Both the position numbers and the translations under genes were made by a program. The notes below the pieces were generated by a model. The model saw only the letters and a list, made by a program, of their open reading frames with translations. It made no database searches and was not told where the DNA came from. From contig JAJDTB010000038.1 of NCBI GenBank assembly GCA_022827345.1, positions 1 to 64,000 of the forward strand: 64,000 bases of DNA, read 5' to 3'. Source of the DNA: Gemmatimonadota bacterium. GTDB lineage: Bacteria > Gemmatimonadota > Gemmatimonadetes > Longimicrobiales > Gaopeijiaceae. This document shows, piece after piece, positions 20,579 to 26,602 of the stretch; the first letter of the stretch is position 1; each line of letters starts with the position of its first letter.

Positions 20579-21364
20579 TCAACTACCCGTGAAGCTCGCC
20601 TTTCGCTTCTCCAGAAAGGCCGCCATCCCCTCCTTCATGTCCGAGGTCGAGGCCAGCACCCCGAACAGCGTCGATTCGAGCGCCTGGGCGTGGTCCATCG
20701 GACTCTCCACCGCTTCGTAGATCGACTTGAGGGCCATCTCGAGCGCGACGGGCGCGTTGCGGATGATGCGCCGGGCCAGTGCCGTGGAACGGTCCATCAG
20801 CTCCTCGTGGGGGACGACGATGTTGGCAAGGCCGATCGCGGCCGCCCGGTCGGCGTCGATCATGTTGCCCGTCAGGATCATCTCGACGGCGCGGCCCAGG
20901 CCGACCAGACGGGTCAGGCGCACCGTCCCCCCATATCCCGGGATGATCCCCAGCCCCACTTCGGGCAGGCCGAAGCGGGCCCGCTCACTGGCCACGCGGA
21001 TGTGGCACGCGATCGCCAGTTCGCACCCGCCGCCGAGCGCATACCCTCCCACGGCCGCGATGACCGGCTTGGGGAAGGTCTCGATGCGCCGGAGGATCTC
21101 CTGCCCCTCCGCGCTTATCCTCGCGCCGGTCAGCGTGTTCATCCGGGCCAGGGTGCCGATGTCGGCGCCCGCGACGAACGCCTTGTCCCCCGCACCGGTC
21201 AGGACGACCGCACGGACCGCCGCATCGTCGCGCAGGGCGGCGAACGCGCCGTCTATCTCCGCCATGACATCGGGGTTCAGCGCGTTGAGCTTGGCCTGCC
21301 GGTCGATCGTGACGGTGGCCACCGAGTCCGCGATTTCGGTCCTGACGTGGTTGCTGTCGCTCAT
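20579..21364 (-). CDS. Enoyl-CoA hydratase/isomerase family protein (crotonase)
   Basis: 261 residues. Crotonase fold with the oxyanion-hole segment AFVAGADIGTLARM and ALGGGCELAIACHIRVA, and the second catalytic segment FGLPEVGLGIIPGYGGT; both catalytic Glu residues (in GCELA and LPEVGLG) are present, as in true short-chain enoyl-CoA hydratases. It would hydrate 2-enoyl-CoA to 3-hydroxyacyl-CoA in beta-oxidation or butanoyl-CoA/PHB metabolism, acting with the 3-hydroxyacyl-CoA dehydrogenase and thiolase at 25724-27894. It is separated from these genes in the window, on the same strand, and is transcribed divergently from ssb. Confidence 0.92.
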   Translation of the reverse strand: MSDSNHVRTEIADSVATVTIDRQAKLNALNPDVMAEIDGAFAALRDDAAVRAVVLTGAGDKAFVAGADIGTLARMNTLTGARISAEGQEILRRIETFPKPVIAAVGGYALGGGCELAIACHIRVASERARFGLPEVGLGIIPGYGGTVRLTRLVGLGRAVEMILTGNMIDADRAAAIGLANIVVPHEELMDRSTALARRIIRNAPVALEMALKSIYEAVESPMDHAQALESTLFGVLASTSDMKEGMAAFLEKRKASFTGS

Positions 21365-21696
21365 TGCCGCTCATTGGTGAGGTGTACGCATTTGTGGAGC
21401 CGTCGAGGAGCGCGGCTCCCGAGCCCTGAAAGCTAGCGTCCCCCGAGTTCGCGACCAGTTTCCGGGACACGACCCCGGTCCGAACGGGATAGGATCCGGC
21501 GGCTGGCCAGGCCAGGTGGCAGCGGCTCGCAATCCGCCCGGGAGCCTCGCTGATACGGCGGACGTGGCGGTCATCGCACCCCTGCCTTACCTTGCGTGCG
21601 GCCCGTGTTGAACGTCACCGCGTTCATCGGGCGGGCAGTGTCCACCGTCCCGGCTGCACAAACCAGGGACACACGACCCAGCTTCATCGAGGGATC
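21365..21696. promoter_or_regulatory. Intergenic region between the crotonase and ssb (divergent promoters)
   Basis: 332 bp with no credible gene. It must contain promoters in both directions. On the plus strand TACCTTGC (21588-21595) about 100 bp before the ssb start resembles elements seen upstream of susC copy 2 and of the DtxR-type gene. No clear minus-35 hexamer, riboswitch or repeat was recognised. Confidence 0.3.
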
Positions 21697-22149
21697 ATGG
21701 CGCGTTCTCTGAACAAAGCAACCTTGATCGGCAATGTCGGGGGCGATCCCGACATTCGCACGACGCAGTCCGGCACCCGGGTGGCCAAGCTGTCCCTGGC
21801 GACCAGCCGCAGCTTCGCGGACCGCTCCGGACAGCAGCAGGAACGGACCCAGTGGCACCGCATCACATTCTTCGGCCGCCTCGTGGATGTCGTCGAACAG
21901 TGGGTGAAGAAGGGTGACAGGCTCTTCGTCGAGGGGCGCATCGAGTATTCACAGACCCAGGACGAGCACGGAGGCACGCGGTACTGGACCGACATCATCG
22001 CCTATGAGATGATCATGCTCGGATCCAGTGGCGGTCGCGGGGCATCGGAGCCTCCGGGGCCGGGCGGCCGTTCCGGGTCCGGCGGCGGATACCGTCCGCC
22101 CGCGCCGAGACCTCAGATTACAGAACCGGACGACGACTTGCCGTTCTAG
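21697..22149 (+). CDS. ssb: Single-stranded DNA-binding protein
   Basis: 150 residues from ATG 21697 (GAGGG a few bases upstream). OB-fold with MARSLNKATLIGNVGGDPDIR, WHRITFFGRLVDVVEQWVKKGD and VEGRIEY, a Gly/Pro-rich linker from about residue 110, and the acidic tip EPDDDLPF that recruits partner proteins. It coats single-stranded DNA in replication and repair. It is followed 36 bp later by infA on the same strand, probably one transcript. An in-frame region upstream of the ATG (from 21592) is not part of the family. Confidence 0.97.
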   Translation: MARSLNKATLIGNVGGDPDIRTTQSGTRVAKLSLATSRSFADRSGQQQERTQWHRITFFGRLVDVVEQWVKKGDRLFVEGRIEYSQTQDEHGGTRYWTDIIAYEMIMLGSSGGRGASEPPGPGGRSGSGGGYRPPAPRPQITEPDDDLPF

Positions 22150-22185
22150 CGGCTTACTGCAGGCAGTACAACGAGGAAGTGATTC

Positions 22186-22401
22186 TTGGCGAACGACGCG
22201 ATCGAGATGGAGGGGACCGTAACCGAGGTCCTTCCCAATGCGAACTTCAGGGTGAAGCTCGAGAACGGCCACGAGATATTGGCCTACTTGTCGGGCAAGA
22301 TGAGGAAATTCTACATCCGCGTGCTCGCCGGGGACCGGGTCAAGGTGGAGATGTCACCGTACGACCTCACGCGGGGCAGGGTCACGTACCGGTACAAGTA
22401 G
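22186..22401 (+). CDS. infA: Translation initiation factor IF-1
   Basis: 71 residues with a TTG start at 22186, preceded by GAGGAAG. The whole S1/OB-fold of IF-1 is present: [59 protein letters not shown] and the terminal YRYK. IF-1 blocks the ribosomal A site during initiation. It normally sits in the large ribosomal-protein operon; here it follows ssb, so it may be the only copy in a moved locus or a second copy. The gene ends within a perfect 14-bp palindrome (22398-22411). Confidence 0.95.
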
Positions 22402-22440
22402 CCGCGGCTACCCGCTAGTCGCAGCTACCCGTTCCTCGCC

Positions 22441-22803
22441 TCAGTCCTCGGCGTCCCCGCCGGCTTCCGGGGGCCCGGACTCGCGCGAATGCACGGGGTC
22501 CGCTGGCTCTTCCGACTCCCAGAATCCCATCAGGAAGGGCTCGAATGCTTCGGGGTCCATGCGGTACAGGCGAACCCATTCGTCGAACTCCGGGAGGTTC
22601 AAACGCTCGCGAATCTTCCCCGTGGCCAGGCTGATACTGTCGCTGAACCTCTCCGGCGGCACCTGCCCGGTCGCGCGTGCTTCGGACCGGGCCAGTGTGT
22701 AGACCTCATCCGGGGAAAGCGCCAGAAGAGCGTCAGCCACACGAGCCGAACAATAGTCTCTGTATTTCGCCCTGAGTACCGGGTCTTCGTCCTGGCGGTC
22801 CAT
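22441..22803 (-). CDS. Uncharacterised 120-residue protein
   Basis: I do not recognise a family. The protein (MDRQDEDPVLRAKYRDYCSA at the start) is mostly helical by composition, acidic at both ends, and the last 20 residues are Pro/Glu/Gly-rich. No signal peptide or membrane helix. The ATG at 22803 has GAGG 8 nt upstream, and codon use (GC-rich third positions) fits a real gene. It converges with infA, with only 39 bp between the stops. The upstream 204-bp gap contains a TTGACA hexamer and a dyad on its strand. Confidence 0.6.
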   Translation of the reverse strand: MDRQDEDPVLRAKYRDYCSARVADALLALSPDEVYTLARSEARATGQVPPERFSDSISLATGKIRERLNLPEFDEWVRLYRMDPEAFEPFLMGFWESEEPADPVHSRESGPPEAGGDAED

Positions 22804-23007
22804 TGAGCCGTCCTCGTTACGCGAACAGGCACCCCGTCAAACAACGTGATCAGTCGCGTCACACAGGAGACAGCGACTGCGCCACGGAACTAAAGGTAAC
22901 TGAAACCAAGGACTACTTGACGGCGGCCACACTTGTCAAGTATACGACCAACTCCGAAGTGATTACGACAATGCCCGGAATCGGTCCCTCGCCGGTGCAG
23001 TCGGCCG
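22804..23007. promoter_or_regulatory. Intergenic region with a TTGACA hexamer and CTTGAC-N13-GTCAAG dyad
   Basis: 204 bp, less GC-rich than flanking genes. On the minus strand a perfect TTGACA (22939-22934) could be the minus-35 box for the gene ending at 22441; 17-18 bp downstream the candidate minus-10 (TAGTCC) is poor. The hexamer overlaps an inverted repeat CTTGAC (22916-22921) / GTCAAG (22935-22940), which could be an operator. No gene seen. Confidence 0.3.
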
Positions 23008-23223
23008 TCAGGTCTGGGCGAACCCCGCGGCGGAATCGTCCGCAATCGAATCCGTGCTGCGGCCGTCGTCCTCTCGCAGGCGGCGGTAGACAGCCCGGCG
23101 AGTGAGGCCGTACTCGATCATGCGACTAAGGGAATCCGGGTCCGTTCGCTGCACCTCTTCGGCTTCCGAGGCGACATCGTGAGGTAGGCGGACGCTGAGC
23201 TGCACGGACCTGGTTTGCCACAT
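23008..23223 (-). CDS. Small ribbon-helix-helix-like protein
   Basis: 71 residues from ATG 23223. The N-terminus reads TRSVQLSVRLPHDVASEAEE, a beta-strand followed by a helix as in ribbon-helix-helix (MetJ/Arc, CopG-type) DNA-binding proteins, then SLSRMIEYGLTRRAVYRRLRED as the second helix. Such proteins act as repressors or antitoxins, but no toxin gene is adjacent. The C-terminus is Asp/Ser-rich. No strong ribosome site was seen, and the assignment rests on the strand-helix pattern only. The open frame extends 49 codons further upstream without plausible protein character. Confidence 0.5.
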   Translation of the reverse strand: MWQTRSVQLSVRLPHDVASEAEEVQRTDPDSLSRMIEYGLTRRAVYRRLREDDGRSTDSIADDSAAGFAQT

Positions 23224-23618
23224 GCCAATATCATCCCATTGTTGGAGAGAGAAATCTGTCGAATTGCCGGAAGGCGACACCGCCGACTCACCGGGCGTGC
23301 GGGCAAACCACCAAGTTTTCGATCGGGCTTGAACAGTACACCCCGAAAAAGACGACCGCAAGATTGGCACGGATTGCTGGCTGATTTCCTAAGTCGTTAT
23401 GCCACAATTACTTATAATCTTGCATGGATTCGGTAATCCACCTGTTTCTGAAGCCGGGCGCCGACACTTCGTCATCGTTCCGATACATGCTAAGTATGAA
23501 TCTGATAAGCGTTTGCGCCACCTGAAAGGCGCTGCCAGCGGTCGATTCCGTGAACACATTTTTGCAAAAAAACGCAGTGATCTACTGGCGCTGCCGGGAA
23601 GCCCCGAATCGGGGTGAT
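23224..23618. other. 395-bp gene-free, AT-richer stretch
   Basis: No supported gene in either strand; this is one of the most AT-rich stretches of the window. It holds a consensus-like TATAAT (23413-23418) on the plus strand without a well-placed minus-35 and with no plus-strand gene following for 2 kb, so it might mark a small RNA or be chance. A short GC hairpin (23602-23614) lies at the right end. Confidence 0.4.
23602..23614 (-). terminator. Possible short terminator hairpin
   Basis: CCCCGAATCGGGG lies 4 bp beyond the stop of the minus-strand gene 23619-24218. It could form a 4-bp GC stem with a 5-base loop, but there is no T-run after it, so evidence for rho-independent termination is weak. 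Confidence 0.25.
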
Positions 23619-24218
23619 TCAGGGGAGAACCGACCGGAGGAACGCCCCCAAAGTCCCCCGATCGAATTCACGGAACCTCCCGCGCACTTTCCTGGCCGTC
23701 TCTTCGAGAAAGATGTTGGCCGTGTGATAGCGCCGGGTGCGCCCTGCCTCCCGGAAACGGAGGAAACCCCGCCAGGCCGCGCCGTCACGGAAGACGTGCA
23801 GGGATGCGACCCATTTGCGGCCGCCGTAGTCGAAACGCCGGTCTTCCAGTCGCCGCGGATGGGCCATCGATGCCGCCCTCGGGTCCTCCGCACCGTCTTC
23901 GATGTGGCTGAGCGGATACCGCGCCCGATCCGCCATCCAGACCTCGAAGGGTGGCAGCGGAAGCAGATGCTCGGCGAAGCTCGCCAGCGAGGCCATGGGA
24001 TCCTGGGTGTCGTGAATCCCGCGCTCATTGGCCCAGAGGCGAGCACGCCCGTACAGTTCCCGGACCGATTCCCGGGGCACCAGGTGGAGAAGCTTGGTTA
24101 CCTGTCGGCGCCGGTATGACCGATACCTCGCCCAGAGGATTTCAGGCGTCTCGAGCGGTGAATCGTTGCGCCCGGTGGTCCCCTGCCACCAGACCTGATC
24201 GTGCATTCCGTTGCCCAT
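23619..24218 (-). CDS. Uncharacterised 199-residue protein
   Basis: I do not recognise the family. The protein is soluble, rich in Arg and aromatic residues (KLLHLVPRESVRELYGRARL; FEVWMADRARYPLSHIED; KWVASLHVFRDGAAWRGFLR), with the second half suggestive of beta-strands. No signal peptide. ATG 24218 is the first start; ATG 24206 is an alternative. It lies 14 bp downstream of the gene at 24233-25120 and is probably co-transcribed with it, so the two are likely to work together. Confidence 0.6.
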   Translation of the reverse strand: MGNGMHDQVWWQGTTGRNDSPLETPEILWARYRSYRRRQVTKLLHLVPRESVRELYGRARLWANERGIHDTQDPMASLASFAEHLLPLPPFEVWMADRARYPLSHIEDGAEDPRAASMAHPRRLEDRRFDYGGRKWVASLHVFRDGAAWRGFLRFREAGRTRRYHTANIFLEETARKVRGRFREFDRGTLGAFLRSVLP

Positions 24219-24232
24219 GGCTTCGCGCGGGT

Positions 24233-25120
24233 TCAGTGAACCGACATGCCGGCGCCCTCGAGACCTCGGGTCAGGTCGCCGGCGCCGGACTCGGAGAATG
24301 TCAGGCGATCCAGCGTAGCTCGCTCCCCGAAGGTCGACACCAGGCCGCGGACGGCCTGAAACCGCTCGGGCTCGAAGCGGGCTACGAGGCGGCCCAGTCC
24401 GCGGCGCATCGTCCGGATGCCGCGCTGCACCTCGCCGAAGGTGACCGGCACGCCGAAACGCACGTAGTACACCCGGTGGCCGTCGCGGCCCGCTTCCCTC
24501 GCCTGGCCGTACTCGAGGTCGGGGAACGCATGTCGAAGCGCACCCTCGAGCCCGTCGTCGGAGCCCCGCCGGTTGGTGCGGAAGACGAGCGCGTTGGCGT
24601 CGTAGTCCAGGTGAACGCGCGTGATTCGGCCGTGACCGGTAACGATCCGCACCACCGTGCTGTCGTGCAGATCCAGATCCCTGCAGACGTCGCGGAAGCC
24701 GATCCGGAGGAGGGTAGGACGCGTTAGGGGCGTGAATCCCCGCCTGTTGAGGACTCTGAGGCCCACGTCGAAACAGTAGCGGCGCAGGGTGTCGCCGGCG
24801 GCCGGGGACTTCTCGGCTTCATCGCTCAGCCGACGCAGGTGGACGAGGGTAGGGTCATACACCCAGTCCAGGATGACCAGTTCCGACGAGAGATTCAGGT
24901 ACTTCACATCCGCCGAGCCCAGATCCACGGCCCTCACGGAGGAGGCAAAACGTCCCGAGACCACCACGGCCAGCCCGATGTCGCTGATCCGGCCCCCGGG
25001 ATGGTACAGCTCGTGCACGTCCCGGTACTGCACCACGGCCCTCGTCAGGGGCAGCTCACAGATGCCCGGCACGTCGGCCATCGCATCCGGACGACTTTCC
25101 GTGGTCGTGGTGCTTCGCAT
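24233..25120 (-). CDS. Uncharacterised 295-residue protein
   Basis: No family recognised. The sequence shows an alpha/beta pattern with segments such as ELYHPGGRISDIGLAVVVSG, LNLSSELVILDWVYDPTLVH and TVVRIVTGHGRITRVHLDYD. There is no signal peptide or transmembrane segment, so it is probably cytoplasmic. The ATG at 25120 lacks a good ribosome site; ATG 25081 (MADVPGICELP) is possible. Codon use fits the host. It precedes the 199-residue gene by 14 bp on the same strand. The spacing suggests a two-gene operon with no known relatives in view. Confidence 0.65.
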   Translation of the reverse strand: MRSTTTTESRPDAMADVPGICELPLTRAVVQYRDVHELYHPGGRISDIGLAVVVSGRFASSVRAVDLGSADVKYLNLSSELVILDWVYDPTLVHLRRLSDEAEKSPAAGDTLRRYCFDVGLRVLNRRGFTPLTRPTLLRIGFRDVCRDLDLHDSTVVRIVTGHGRITRVHLDYDANALVFRTNRRGSDDGLEGALRHAFPDLEYGQAREAGRDGHRVYYVRFGVPVTFGEVQRGIRTMRRGLGRLVARFEPERFQAVRGLVSTFGERATLDRLTFSESGAGDLTRGLEGAGMSVH

Positions 25121-25438
25121 GGTGCCGCAACGCTGGAGATGGAGTGTGCAGCCGGGGAGTATCCGCCGACAGGTGGGTCAAGGGGCTCGAATGATAAGCA
25201 TATGTTTACCTGGGAGGCAAGGGATTTTCTCGGGGGTACTTTCCGGCCGAAACCCGGTGGCGCGGGCCACCCCCGCTCGTCGGCAGAACGGGCCCGATCC
25301 GGCATCTTGCCGTGGCTGGGGCATTTTGCCTATTGTTAATGGCTAGCCACGAGCGATCGGGAGCTGGGTCGACAACCGGTTGGACGGCCCACTTCGGCGC
25401 GCTCGAATTCAACGGAAACAGCGGTACCTCAAAGCGGG
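25121..25438. promoter_or_regulatory. Intergenic region upstream of rpsU, divergent
   Basis: 318 bp between two divergent genes, with no gene seen. It holds the likely rpsU promoter (25307-25336) and, on the other strand, presumably that of the 295-residue gene. No riboswitch or repeat recognised. Confidence 0.4.
25307..25336 (+). promoter_or_regulatory. Candidate sigma-70-type promoter for rpsU
   Basis: TTGCCG (25307-25312) and TATTGT (25331-25336) are separated by 18 bp, close to the usual minus-35/minus-10 spacing, and stand about 100 bp before the rpsU start. The hexamers match the consensus at 4 of 6 positions each. Not supported by anything else. Confidence 0.35.
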
Positions 25439-25642
25439 GTGATCCGGTTGGAAGTATTCGTCAAAGAGAACGAAAGCCTGGAGAGGGCCCTTCGCAGATT
25501 CAAGCGGAAGGTGCAGCGGTCCGGGCTGTACTCCGAACTGCGCAAGCGACGGTTCTACGAGAAGCCGAGCGCGCAGCGGAAGCGCAAGAGAGAAGCAGCG
25601 ATCCGCCGCGAACGCAGGCGGCAGCGCCGGATTCGCCGGTAG
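25439..25642 (+). CDS. rpsU: 30S ribosomal protein bS21
   Basis: 67 residues, very basic. The family pattern is clear: [19 protein letters not shown] followed by a Lys/Arg-rich tail ending [12 protein letters not shown]. bS21 helps 30S subunits pair with the Shine-Dalgarno sequence. The start is GTG 25439; a TTG three codons later (25448) is preceded by GGGGTGATCC, which itself resembles a Shine-Dalgarno site, so the shorter form is possible. Monocistronic, in its own orientation between two minus-strand regions. Confidence 0.95.
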
Positions 25643-25701
25643 GGGCACTCCGGACCGACGTGCTCGCGGTGCCCTGAGCACCGCCGCCGTCCCATCCAGA
25701 C

Positions 25702-25725
25702 GAGGTTCCCCGACCCCGGGGCCTC
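25702..25725. terminator. GC-rich hairpin between convergent rpsU and the dehydrogenase gene
   Basis: GAGG-tt-CCCCG-ACCC-CGGGG-CCTC forms a 5-bp GC core stem with a 4-base loop, extended by a further 4 bp across a 2-base bulge. It lies between the ends of two convergent genes and touches the stop of the minus-strand one. There is no T-run on either side, so it would be a weak or factor-assisted terminator. Confidence 0.4.
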
Positions 25726-26602
25726 ACAGCTTCAGGGCGATCGGTCCGTCCGGAGTCCAGTCGTAGAACCCGGCGCCGGTCTTTCGGCCGTAGCGCCCCA
25801 TGGTCATCAGCCGCTTCAGGAGCGGGGGCGGAGCGTAGCGCTCTTCGCGGTATTCCTCGTACATGATTTCGGCCACGCGGTACAGCGTGTCGATTCCGAC
25901 GAAGTCGCCGAGCACGAAGGGCCCCATCGGGTAGCCGCAGCCCAGGGTCATCGCGGTGTCGATGTCTTCGATGGTCGCAACCCCGCGTTCCACCTGCCGG
26001 ATCGCGTCCAGCATGTAGGGAACCAGCAGCAGGTTCACGACGAATCCCGAGTTGTCCTTCGCCGAGATCGGGGTCTTGCCCACGCGCACCGCGAAGTCAT
26101 GCGCCGCCTCGAACGTCTCCTGGCCGGTGACGATCGTCCTCACGACCTCGACCAGCTTCATGACCGGCACCGGGTTGAAGAAATGCAGCCCCACGAAACG
26201 CTCGGGGCGTGAGGTCGCGGCCGCCATGTCGGTCACGGTGAGAGAGCTGGTGTTGGAGGCGAAGATCGTCTCCTCGCCGCATATCCCGTCCAGGTACCCG
26301 AAGAGTTCCTTCTTGGCGTCCAGCGATTCGATGATCGCCTCGACGACCAGGTCACAGTCGGCGAGGTCGTCCAGCGAAGTCGTGAAGGTGATCCTGGCGA
26401 GCGCCTCGTCGCGTGCGCCCTCGTCGAGCTTGCCCTTCGACACGGCCCGGTCGAGGGATCCGCAAATGCGCTTCCGTCCGCTGGCCAGCGCACTCTCGTC
26501 GATCTCCCGGACCACCACATCCAATCCCGCCTTGGCCGACACCTCGGCGATCCCGCTGCCCATCAGGCCGCATCCGGCCACCCCAACCTTGTTGATCTCC
26601 AA
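25724..26602 (-). CDS. 3-hydroxyacyl-CoA (3-hydroxybutyryl-CoA) dehydrogenase
   Basis: 292 residues from a TTG at 26602 with an excellent ribosome site (GGAGGAG, 7 nt away). The NAD-binding Rossmann motif AGCGLMGSGIAE is at residues 9-20, the catalytic His in GLHFFNPVPVMKLVEVV, the conserved Ser/Asn in FASNTSSL and GFVVNLLLVPYM, and the C-terminal domain ends GRKTGAGFYDW. It oxidises 3-hydroxyacyl-CoA to 3-ketoacyl-CoA with NAD+. It follows the thiolase by 86 bp, so the two steps are encoded together. The open frame upstream of the TTG overlaps the thiolase and is a shadow. Confidence 0.93.
   Translation of the reverse strand: MEINKVGVAGCGLMGSGIAEVSAKAGLDVVVREIDESALASGRKRICGSLDRAVSKGKLDEGARDEALARITFTTSLDDLADCDLVVEAIIESLDAKKELFGYLDGICGEETIFASNTSSLTVTDMAAATSRPERFVGLHFFNPVPVMKLVEVVRTIVTGQETFEAAHDFAVRVGKTPISAKDNSGFVVNLLLVPYMLDAIRQVERGVATIEDIDTAMTLGCGYPMGPFVLGDFVGIDTLYRVAEIMYEEYREERYAPPPLLKRLMTMGRYGRKTGAGFYDWTPDGPIALKL

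Follow-up and report, generated by a model that had tools for sequence, protein, structure and literature searches.

A small gene array of the order P1-P2-P4-P3, flanked by rpsU on one side and by infA and ssb on the other in one family of Gemmatimonadota, is a chromosomally fixed, vertically inherited module of this phylum, joined in most of the family's other genera by a divergent additional gene, P5. The copy described here lies in the window, the whole stretch of 64,000 nucleotides of DNA that was analysed (Table 1). Its protein families and the array itself look new, and no account of the array was met in the part of the Gemmatimonadota literature covered by a search, which is no claim that it is absent from print. 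As for function, which we infer, the array may tentatively be read as a lineage-specific, non-enzymatic partner-binding or regulatory module linked to DNA maintenance.

Table 1. Genes and conserved non-coding elements of the array and its flanks in the window
Feature	Coordinates	Strand	Description
P1, 295 aa	24233..25120	-	N-terminal beta strands (28-86) and helices; predicted C-terminal YbjN/T3S-chaperone-like domain (134-249)
P2, 199 aa	23619..24218	-	helical domain H at the N-terminal side (about 25-109; homologue of P3), beta-rich domain B at the C-terminal side (about 120-199)
P4, 71 aa	23008..23223	-	small and conserved; likeness to ribbon-helix-helix proteins judged by eye
P3, 120 aa	22441..22803	-	domain H alone; weak DUF3135 match under cut-off
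infA	22186..22401	+	neighbour of array
ssb	21697..22149	+	conserved neighbour, past P3
rpsU	25439..25642	+	conserved neighbour, P1 side
P2-P4 intergenic region	23224..23618	-	conserved length and non-coding blocks
25-bp palindrome TAAGTAATTGTGGCATAACGACTTA	23390..23414	-	5' end 191 bp ahead of P4 start (relatives: 180-228 bp)
Conserved block GAAACAGGTGGATTACCG, consensus gGgAACAnnTGgnTT	23431..23448	-	
Promoter-like element cTTGCG...TAnnnT	23333..23361	-	conserved; upstream of P4
T/A dyad GTTTTTTTGCAAAAATGTG	23555..23573	-	conserved; just after P2

Gene content and coding evidence

The preliminary description had drawn attention to two open reading frames, of 295 and 199 residues, on the same strand, 14 bp apart, and between infA and rpsU. 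This layout is confirmed for P1 and P2, which share the minus strand. The view of them as a two-gene cassette holds insofar as they form a close pair kept in many relatives (44 of 58 loci with an intact P2), but together they supply half the genes of a block adjoining ssb, which numbers four to five genes and is stably inherited. The block includes the two adjacent small orphans of that description, P3 and P4, which are real genes found in 23/23 and 18/18 genomes of the window's genus, and, contrary to what had been supposed, the stretch is not gene-sparse. Further along past ssb, recF and gyrB were recognised by eye.

P1, P2, P3, and P4 are real protein genes, and chance reading frames are excluded. 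Differences between P1 of the window and that of L107 number 6/5/36 at codon positions 1/2/3, those between P2 and a relative 4/1/21, and those of P4 also fall mostly at codon position 3; P3, with 5/2/4 against its nearest relative, is the exception. This third-position bias of substitutions therefore identifies the reading frames of the array as protein genes, the comparison of P3 with its nearest relative excepted. Invariant residues are present across 68 P1 sequences, and the P4 start at 23223 is backed by a near-invariant first residue. The P1 gene of one congener (L017, G003:C2:41185-42039) has an in-frame TAG.

Pfam assigned no family to P1, P2, P3, P4, or P5, NCBIfam none to the four window proteins, and PHROGs and PADLOC none to these four and one P5. 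Sequence searches of the PDB with profiles of all five gave nothing with E under 0.1, and Rfam gave nothing on 21000-26500. The Pfam, NCBIfam, PHROGs, and PADLOC results bear out the earlier statement that P1 and P2 have no assignable family, and no homology to housekeeping families was found for the pair.

Distribution and gene order

Two genome sets were searched: 59 genomes including the window's own, of which 23 belong to its genus, and a phylum draw of 298 genomes, of which 73 belong to its family (f1). In the smaller set, P1 was found in 34/59 genomes (23/23 in the genus, own included), P3 in 47/59 (23/23, likewise), and P2 in 39/59 at E<=0.001, a count that takes in weak paralogue matches. 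P2 was present in 18/23 genus genomes, own included, and the P1-P2 pair in as many, so close relatives do keep the pair; P4 was present in all 18 genus genomes drawn, own included. In one genome (G005), the P1 match was split into two pieces on two contigs. Across the phylum draw, P1 was found in 63/298 genomes, namely 62/73 of f1 and one f2 genome, with a single match in each of the 63. P4 was matched in 101/298, families f2, f3, f4, f7, and f9 among them, and the P4-P3 pair is spread more widely than P1. The P5 profile matched 99/298 genomes, many through cross-match; strong matches (E<=1.2e-68) came from 47 genomes, 40 of them in f1 and none in the window's genus.

The 74 loci of named relatives are Gemmatimonadota/Longimicrobiales MAG records, with L176 labelled Gammaproteobacteria. 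Of 74 P1 loci, 58 extend past P1 by over 2.6 kb, and at all 58 the order P1-P2-P4-P3 is kept among the genes found. P2 is intact at 44 of these, fragmented at 2 (L143, L171), and not found at 12, including L149, where a P2 fragment remains near a masked stretch. P4 was found at 57/58 and P3 at 56/58, the latter count excluding L149 because the match there is the P2 fragment. The array at L162 is without P3, which in that genome (G010) sits on a different contig. On the P1 side, rpsU was found at 56/59 loci with 2.5 kb before P1. On the other side, ssb lies within 2.5 kb past P3 at 67/70 loci with room, comprising 55/55 of L107-L180 and 12/15 of L091-L106 (misses L097, L101, L102), a series that re-fetches some genomes already in the locus set. 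In a separate case, G119, the array is in two places on a single contig, some 0.6 Mb from each other (L221, L222): P1 is accompanied by a fragment from the start of P2, and P4-P3 by one from its end, as though P2 had been broken by a rearrangement; parts of these loci are masked.

A phage origin was rejected: P1, the one protein run against the phage and plasmid collections, had no match at E<=0.01, and PHROGs gave nothing. In BFVD, a single row had E below 0.001, that of C9DFY7 from Delftia phage PhiW-14, and it was judged too poor for use (rmsd 14.4, TM 0.25).

Domain sharing among P2, P3, and P5

Three proteins of the array share the helical domain H, which precedes B in P2, follows it in P5, and stands alone in P3. 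The hhalign comparisons of H gave E=4.8e-13 for P2-P3, 8.4e-16 for P2-P5, and 6.4e-10 for P5-P3, and the earlier statement that P2 has no family in common with the rest of the window does not stand, its N-terminal half being homologous to the neighbouring P3. An AlphaFold model of P2 (54 rows) reached pLDDT 84.9 and pTM 0.76. The VIA rows for P2 cover residues 110-199, with H barely compared with known folds, and for B they are weak (best Z 5.6), naming a conoid-fibre protein, AcrF1, PUR-alpha, and WGR, the last being WGR domains of PARP.

Domain B also occurs in single small genes without a Pfam family. One such gene lies directly past P3 in 5/11 f7 loci. Others lie elsewhere in Gemmatimonadota genomes (L211:4717-5127, L213:4962-5333, L212:4541-4831), some of them beside oxidoreductase-like and ABC-type genes, as judged by eye. 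Residues 69-89 of P3 match positions 1-21 of the 81-position DUF3135 model (PF11333; E 5.3e-4), and four P3 relatives are unmatched by it at E<=1; with a score of 20.7 under the Pfam cut-off of 22.7 and 21 of 81 positions covered, P3 would not be placed in this family.

Predicted structure of P1

The AlphaFold model of P1, built on a 68-row alignment, reached pLDDT 88.7 and pTM 0.84. Its elements H134-149, E156-162, E165-172, E177-182, H189-198, E203-208, E216-221, and H228-249 give residues 134-249, a domain modelled with confidence, a predicted order of alpha-beta3-alpha-beta2-alpha, the same as that given for DR1245, YbjN, and class I type III chaperones in the available part of PMC3575483. 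P1 differs from YbjN and DR1245 in its extra N-terminal part and in having no YbjN sequence match: at E<=1 the 68 P1 members matched 10 Pfam families, none of them YbjN.

Foldseek gave no match of P1 to the PDB at E<=0.001. Its first rows were ExsC and SpcU, with SchA also present, ExsC reaching E 0.013 at best and TMt 0.37-0.40. The VIA rows for P1 lie mainly on residues 128-253, the N-terminal part being barely compared with known folds except for one row on 14-129 (Ski2, Z 6.2). The best VIA value, Z 6.8, was tied among Atg10 and aminotransferase C-domains; the C-terminal DNA-binding domain of T4 MotA (Z 6.2/6.1) and the C-terminal domain of TRCF (Z 5.7) matched 128-253, and the chaperone SycT (Z 5.4, rmsd 4.0, 103 aligned) was equalled or bettered by unrelated rows and stood below MotA. 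The matches to chaperones are thus weak and no better than those to MotA- or aminotransferase-type domains. Because no strong structural match was returned, the fold assignment rests on topology, by which the modelled C-terminal domain is read as chaperone-fold-like.

P4 and the region upstream of it

By eye, P4 resembles ribbon-helix-helix regulators of the CopG/Arc type in that two helix-like stretches come after a strand-like beginning; from this pattern P4 may be a DNA-binding protein. No ribbon-helix-helix family in Pfam matched the P4 reading frame at E<=10 or six P4 proteins at E<=1, and a sequence search of the PDB with P4 gave nothing useful. An hhalign comparison with a presumed ribbon-helix-helix protein from L268, itself without a Pfam match, gave 0.3%. 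The sole curated near-match was YlcI/YnfO (NF041551, E 0.0029, 17.6 of 30 bits).

The gap between P2 and P4 measures 350-437 bp in 53/54 loci and 680 bp in the remaining one. In 77/78 f1 loci, the best match to the palindrome is located between -180 and -228 relative to P4, and 68 reach p<=0.005 against mononucleotide shuffles. The palindrome, TAAGTnGTTGTnnnACAACnACTTA, is present in several families of the phylum, and the same threshold is reached in f2 (5/7), f3 (1/5), f7 (1/11), and f9 (1/3), with 0/1 in f4. The site in the window is the only one at <=3 mismatches in both the window and its own genome (G000). At <=2 mismatches, 33 sites occur in 23/78 family genomes, and a reversed control gave none; by coordinates and a P4 scan of four loci, 19 of these precede P4 and the other 14 do not. 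When another 43 genomes were scanned at <=3 mismatches, the palindrome was present in 13 and the control in 2; the 13 comprise 5/20 genomes without detectable P4 and 8/23 with P4. As it occurs without detectable P4, its binder need not be P4, and a P4-only operator is unsupported, the P4-less genomes being G062, G065, G070, G036, and G052, in which the P3 profile found nothing or weak matches (best E 0.00125). An RNA hairpin at the palindrome is likewise unsupported, since in 77 loci changes in one half are nearly independent of those in the other: paired cells number 586, against a shuffle mean of 571 (sd 8.6, z 1.7) and a shuffle maximum of 601.

Contexts were examined for 40 palindrome sites, of which 2 precede P4. 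Five of the other 38 lie within 2 kb of parA (L274, L280, L286, L290, L301), in three families (f1, f2, f5). Those of L274, L280, and L286 are at homologous places, inside mnmG in two, and that of L290 is at the parA-parB junction. The site L303:2921-2945 is within about 100 bp upstream of the Ku gene start in G065, a genome in which neither P4 nor P3 is detectable; the ParA of L301 and the Ku of L303 were confirmed by Pfam. The remaining sites, judged by eye, lie in pilin/two-component, ftcD-like, or mobile-element-like contexts in genome pairs, or in none that is shared. Two further observations concern these sites. The L286 flank also has TTTCACGTGGAAC, which we take to be parS-like, and in two f4 genomes the palindrome sits at the upstream end of the members of a small gene family (L293:2706-3110, L304:1220-1765).

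Neighbourhood of the P4-P3 pair

Outside the window's family, LigD is found no further than about 2.6 kb from P4-P3 in 7/8 f3/f9 loci (L101, L220, L224-L227, L229; not L102), and Ku is also present in 4 of these 7, which may represent one inherited arrangement. Neither Ku nor LigD was matched at the f1/f2 loci, nor at any of the 11 f7 loci examined, and the single f4 P4-P3 locus is a 3-kb contig. The adjacency to ssb may be just inherited synteny near recF and gyrB; because the whole ssb-recF-gyrB segment is conserved, the neighbourhood argument is weak alone.

Possible function and alternative explanations

In the tentative reading of a partner-binding module, P4 would be a small DNA-binding regulator of a P4-P3 operon, and expression would be set via the palindrome and the promoter-like element that precede P4. 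P3, P2, and P5 would share H as a common interaction domain, joined to B in P2 and P5, and the C-terminal domain of P1 would be akin to YbjN and DR1245, binding and holding a partner protein without enzymatic activity. Through protein-protein contacts, the module would then act on DNA-maintenance factors, of which SSB is the obvious candidate. This putative tie to DNA maintenance is drawn because of the neighbouring genes and by analogy with DR1245 of Deinococcus radiodurans, which partners the SSB-like DdrB, as the P1 array adjoins ssb. Non-enzymatic protein binding is itself presumed for DR1245 and YbjN and putative for P1, and DR1245 matters for growth and not for radioresistance, according to the available part of PMC3575483. 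It is conceivable, though unlikely, that these features belong to an undescribed chromosome-maintenance circuit of Gemmatimonadota, in which the palindrome would mark P4-P3, the parAB region, and Ku, and P1, P2, P3, and P5 would be lineage-specific partners of SSB or of end joining, an independent parallel to DR1245-DdrB.

A doubtful but possible alternative is that the P1 C-terminal domain and P2 B domain bind nucleic acid directly, making the module one of transcription or nucleoid factors instead of chaperone-like adaptors. The MotA and TRCF rows for P1, the PARP WGR and PUR-alpha rows for P2, and the palindrome common to parAB and Ku loci are consistent with this, but every Z is under 7, a range reached by common arrangements, and no nucleic-acid-binding family was found by sequence. 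The array could also be a drifting lineage-specific remnant without an important role, carried along by the surrounding core genes, given that P2 is missing or fragmented at 14/58 loci, P5 has no strong match in the window's genus, and one P1 (G003) has an in-frame stop; the codon-position-3 bias in P1, P2, and P4 (not P3 against its nearest relative), the invariant residues of P1, and its presence in most f1 genomes drawn make this quite unlikely. The coupling of two small orphan genes across a gap of 14 bp invites comparison with a toxin-antitoxin or other conflict pair, and the preliminary description had raised toxicity of one protein without the other. Stable synteny, single-copy P1, and retention of P1 where P2 was not found argue against such a pair, as do the lack of phage, plasmid, or PADLOC matches reported above, and the distribution is not the patchy, mobile one, with both genes together, of type II systems; the idea is very improbable. 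Least credible is that P1 is a true secretion chaperone with P2 or P5 as its exported client. Its secondary-structure order and the type III chaperone rows from Foldseek fit, but no secretion genes were recognised beside the array in an unsystematic inspection of loci by eye, and YbjN proteins share the chaperone fold without evidence of a secretion role in the available part of PMC5398634.

Significance

Gemmatimonadota are widespread, nearly all of the relatives in this analysis come from metagenome assemblies, and few lineage-specific genes of the phylum have testable functions. The fixed array beside ssb, the reuse of H in three neighbouring proteins with the domain order swapped in one, and the palindrome provide concrete handles for experiments. 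If the parallel with YbjN and DR1245 is true, SSB partners with a chaperone fold would have arisen in a second phylum.
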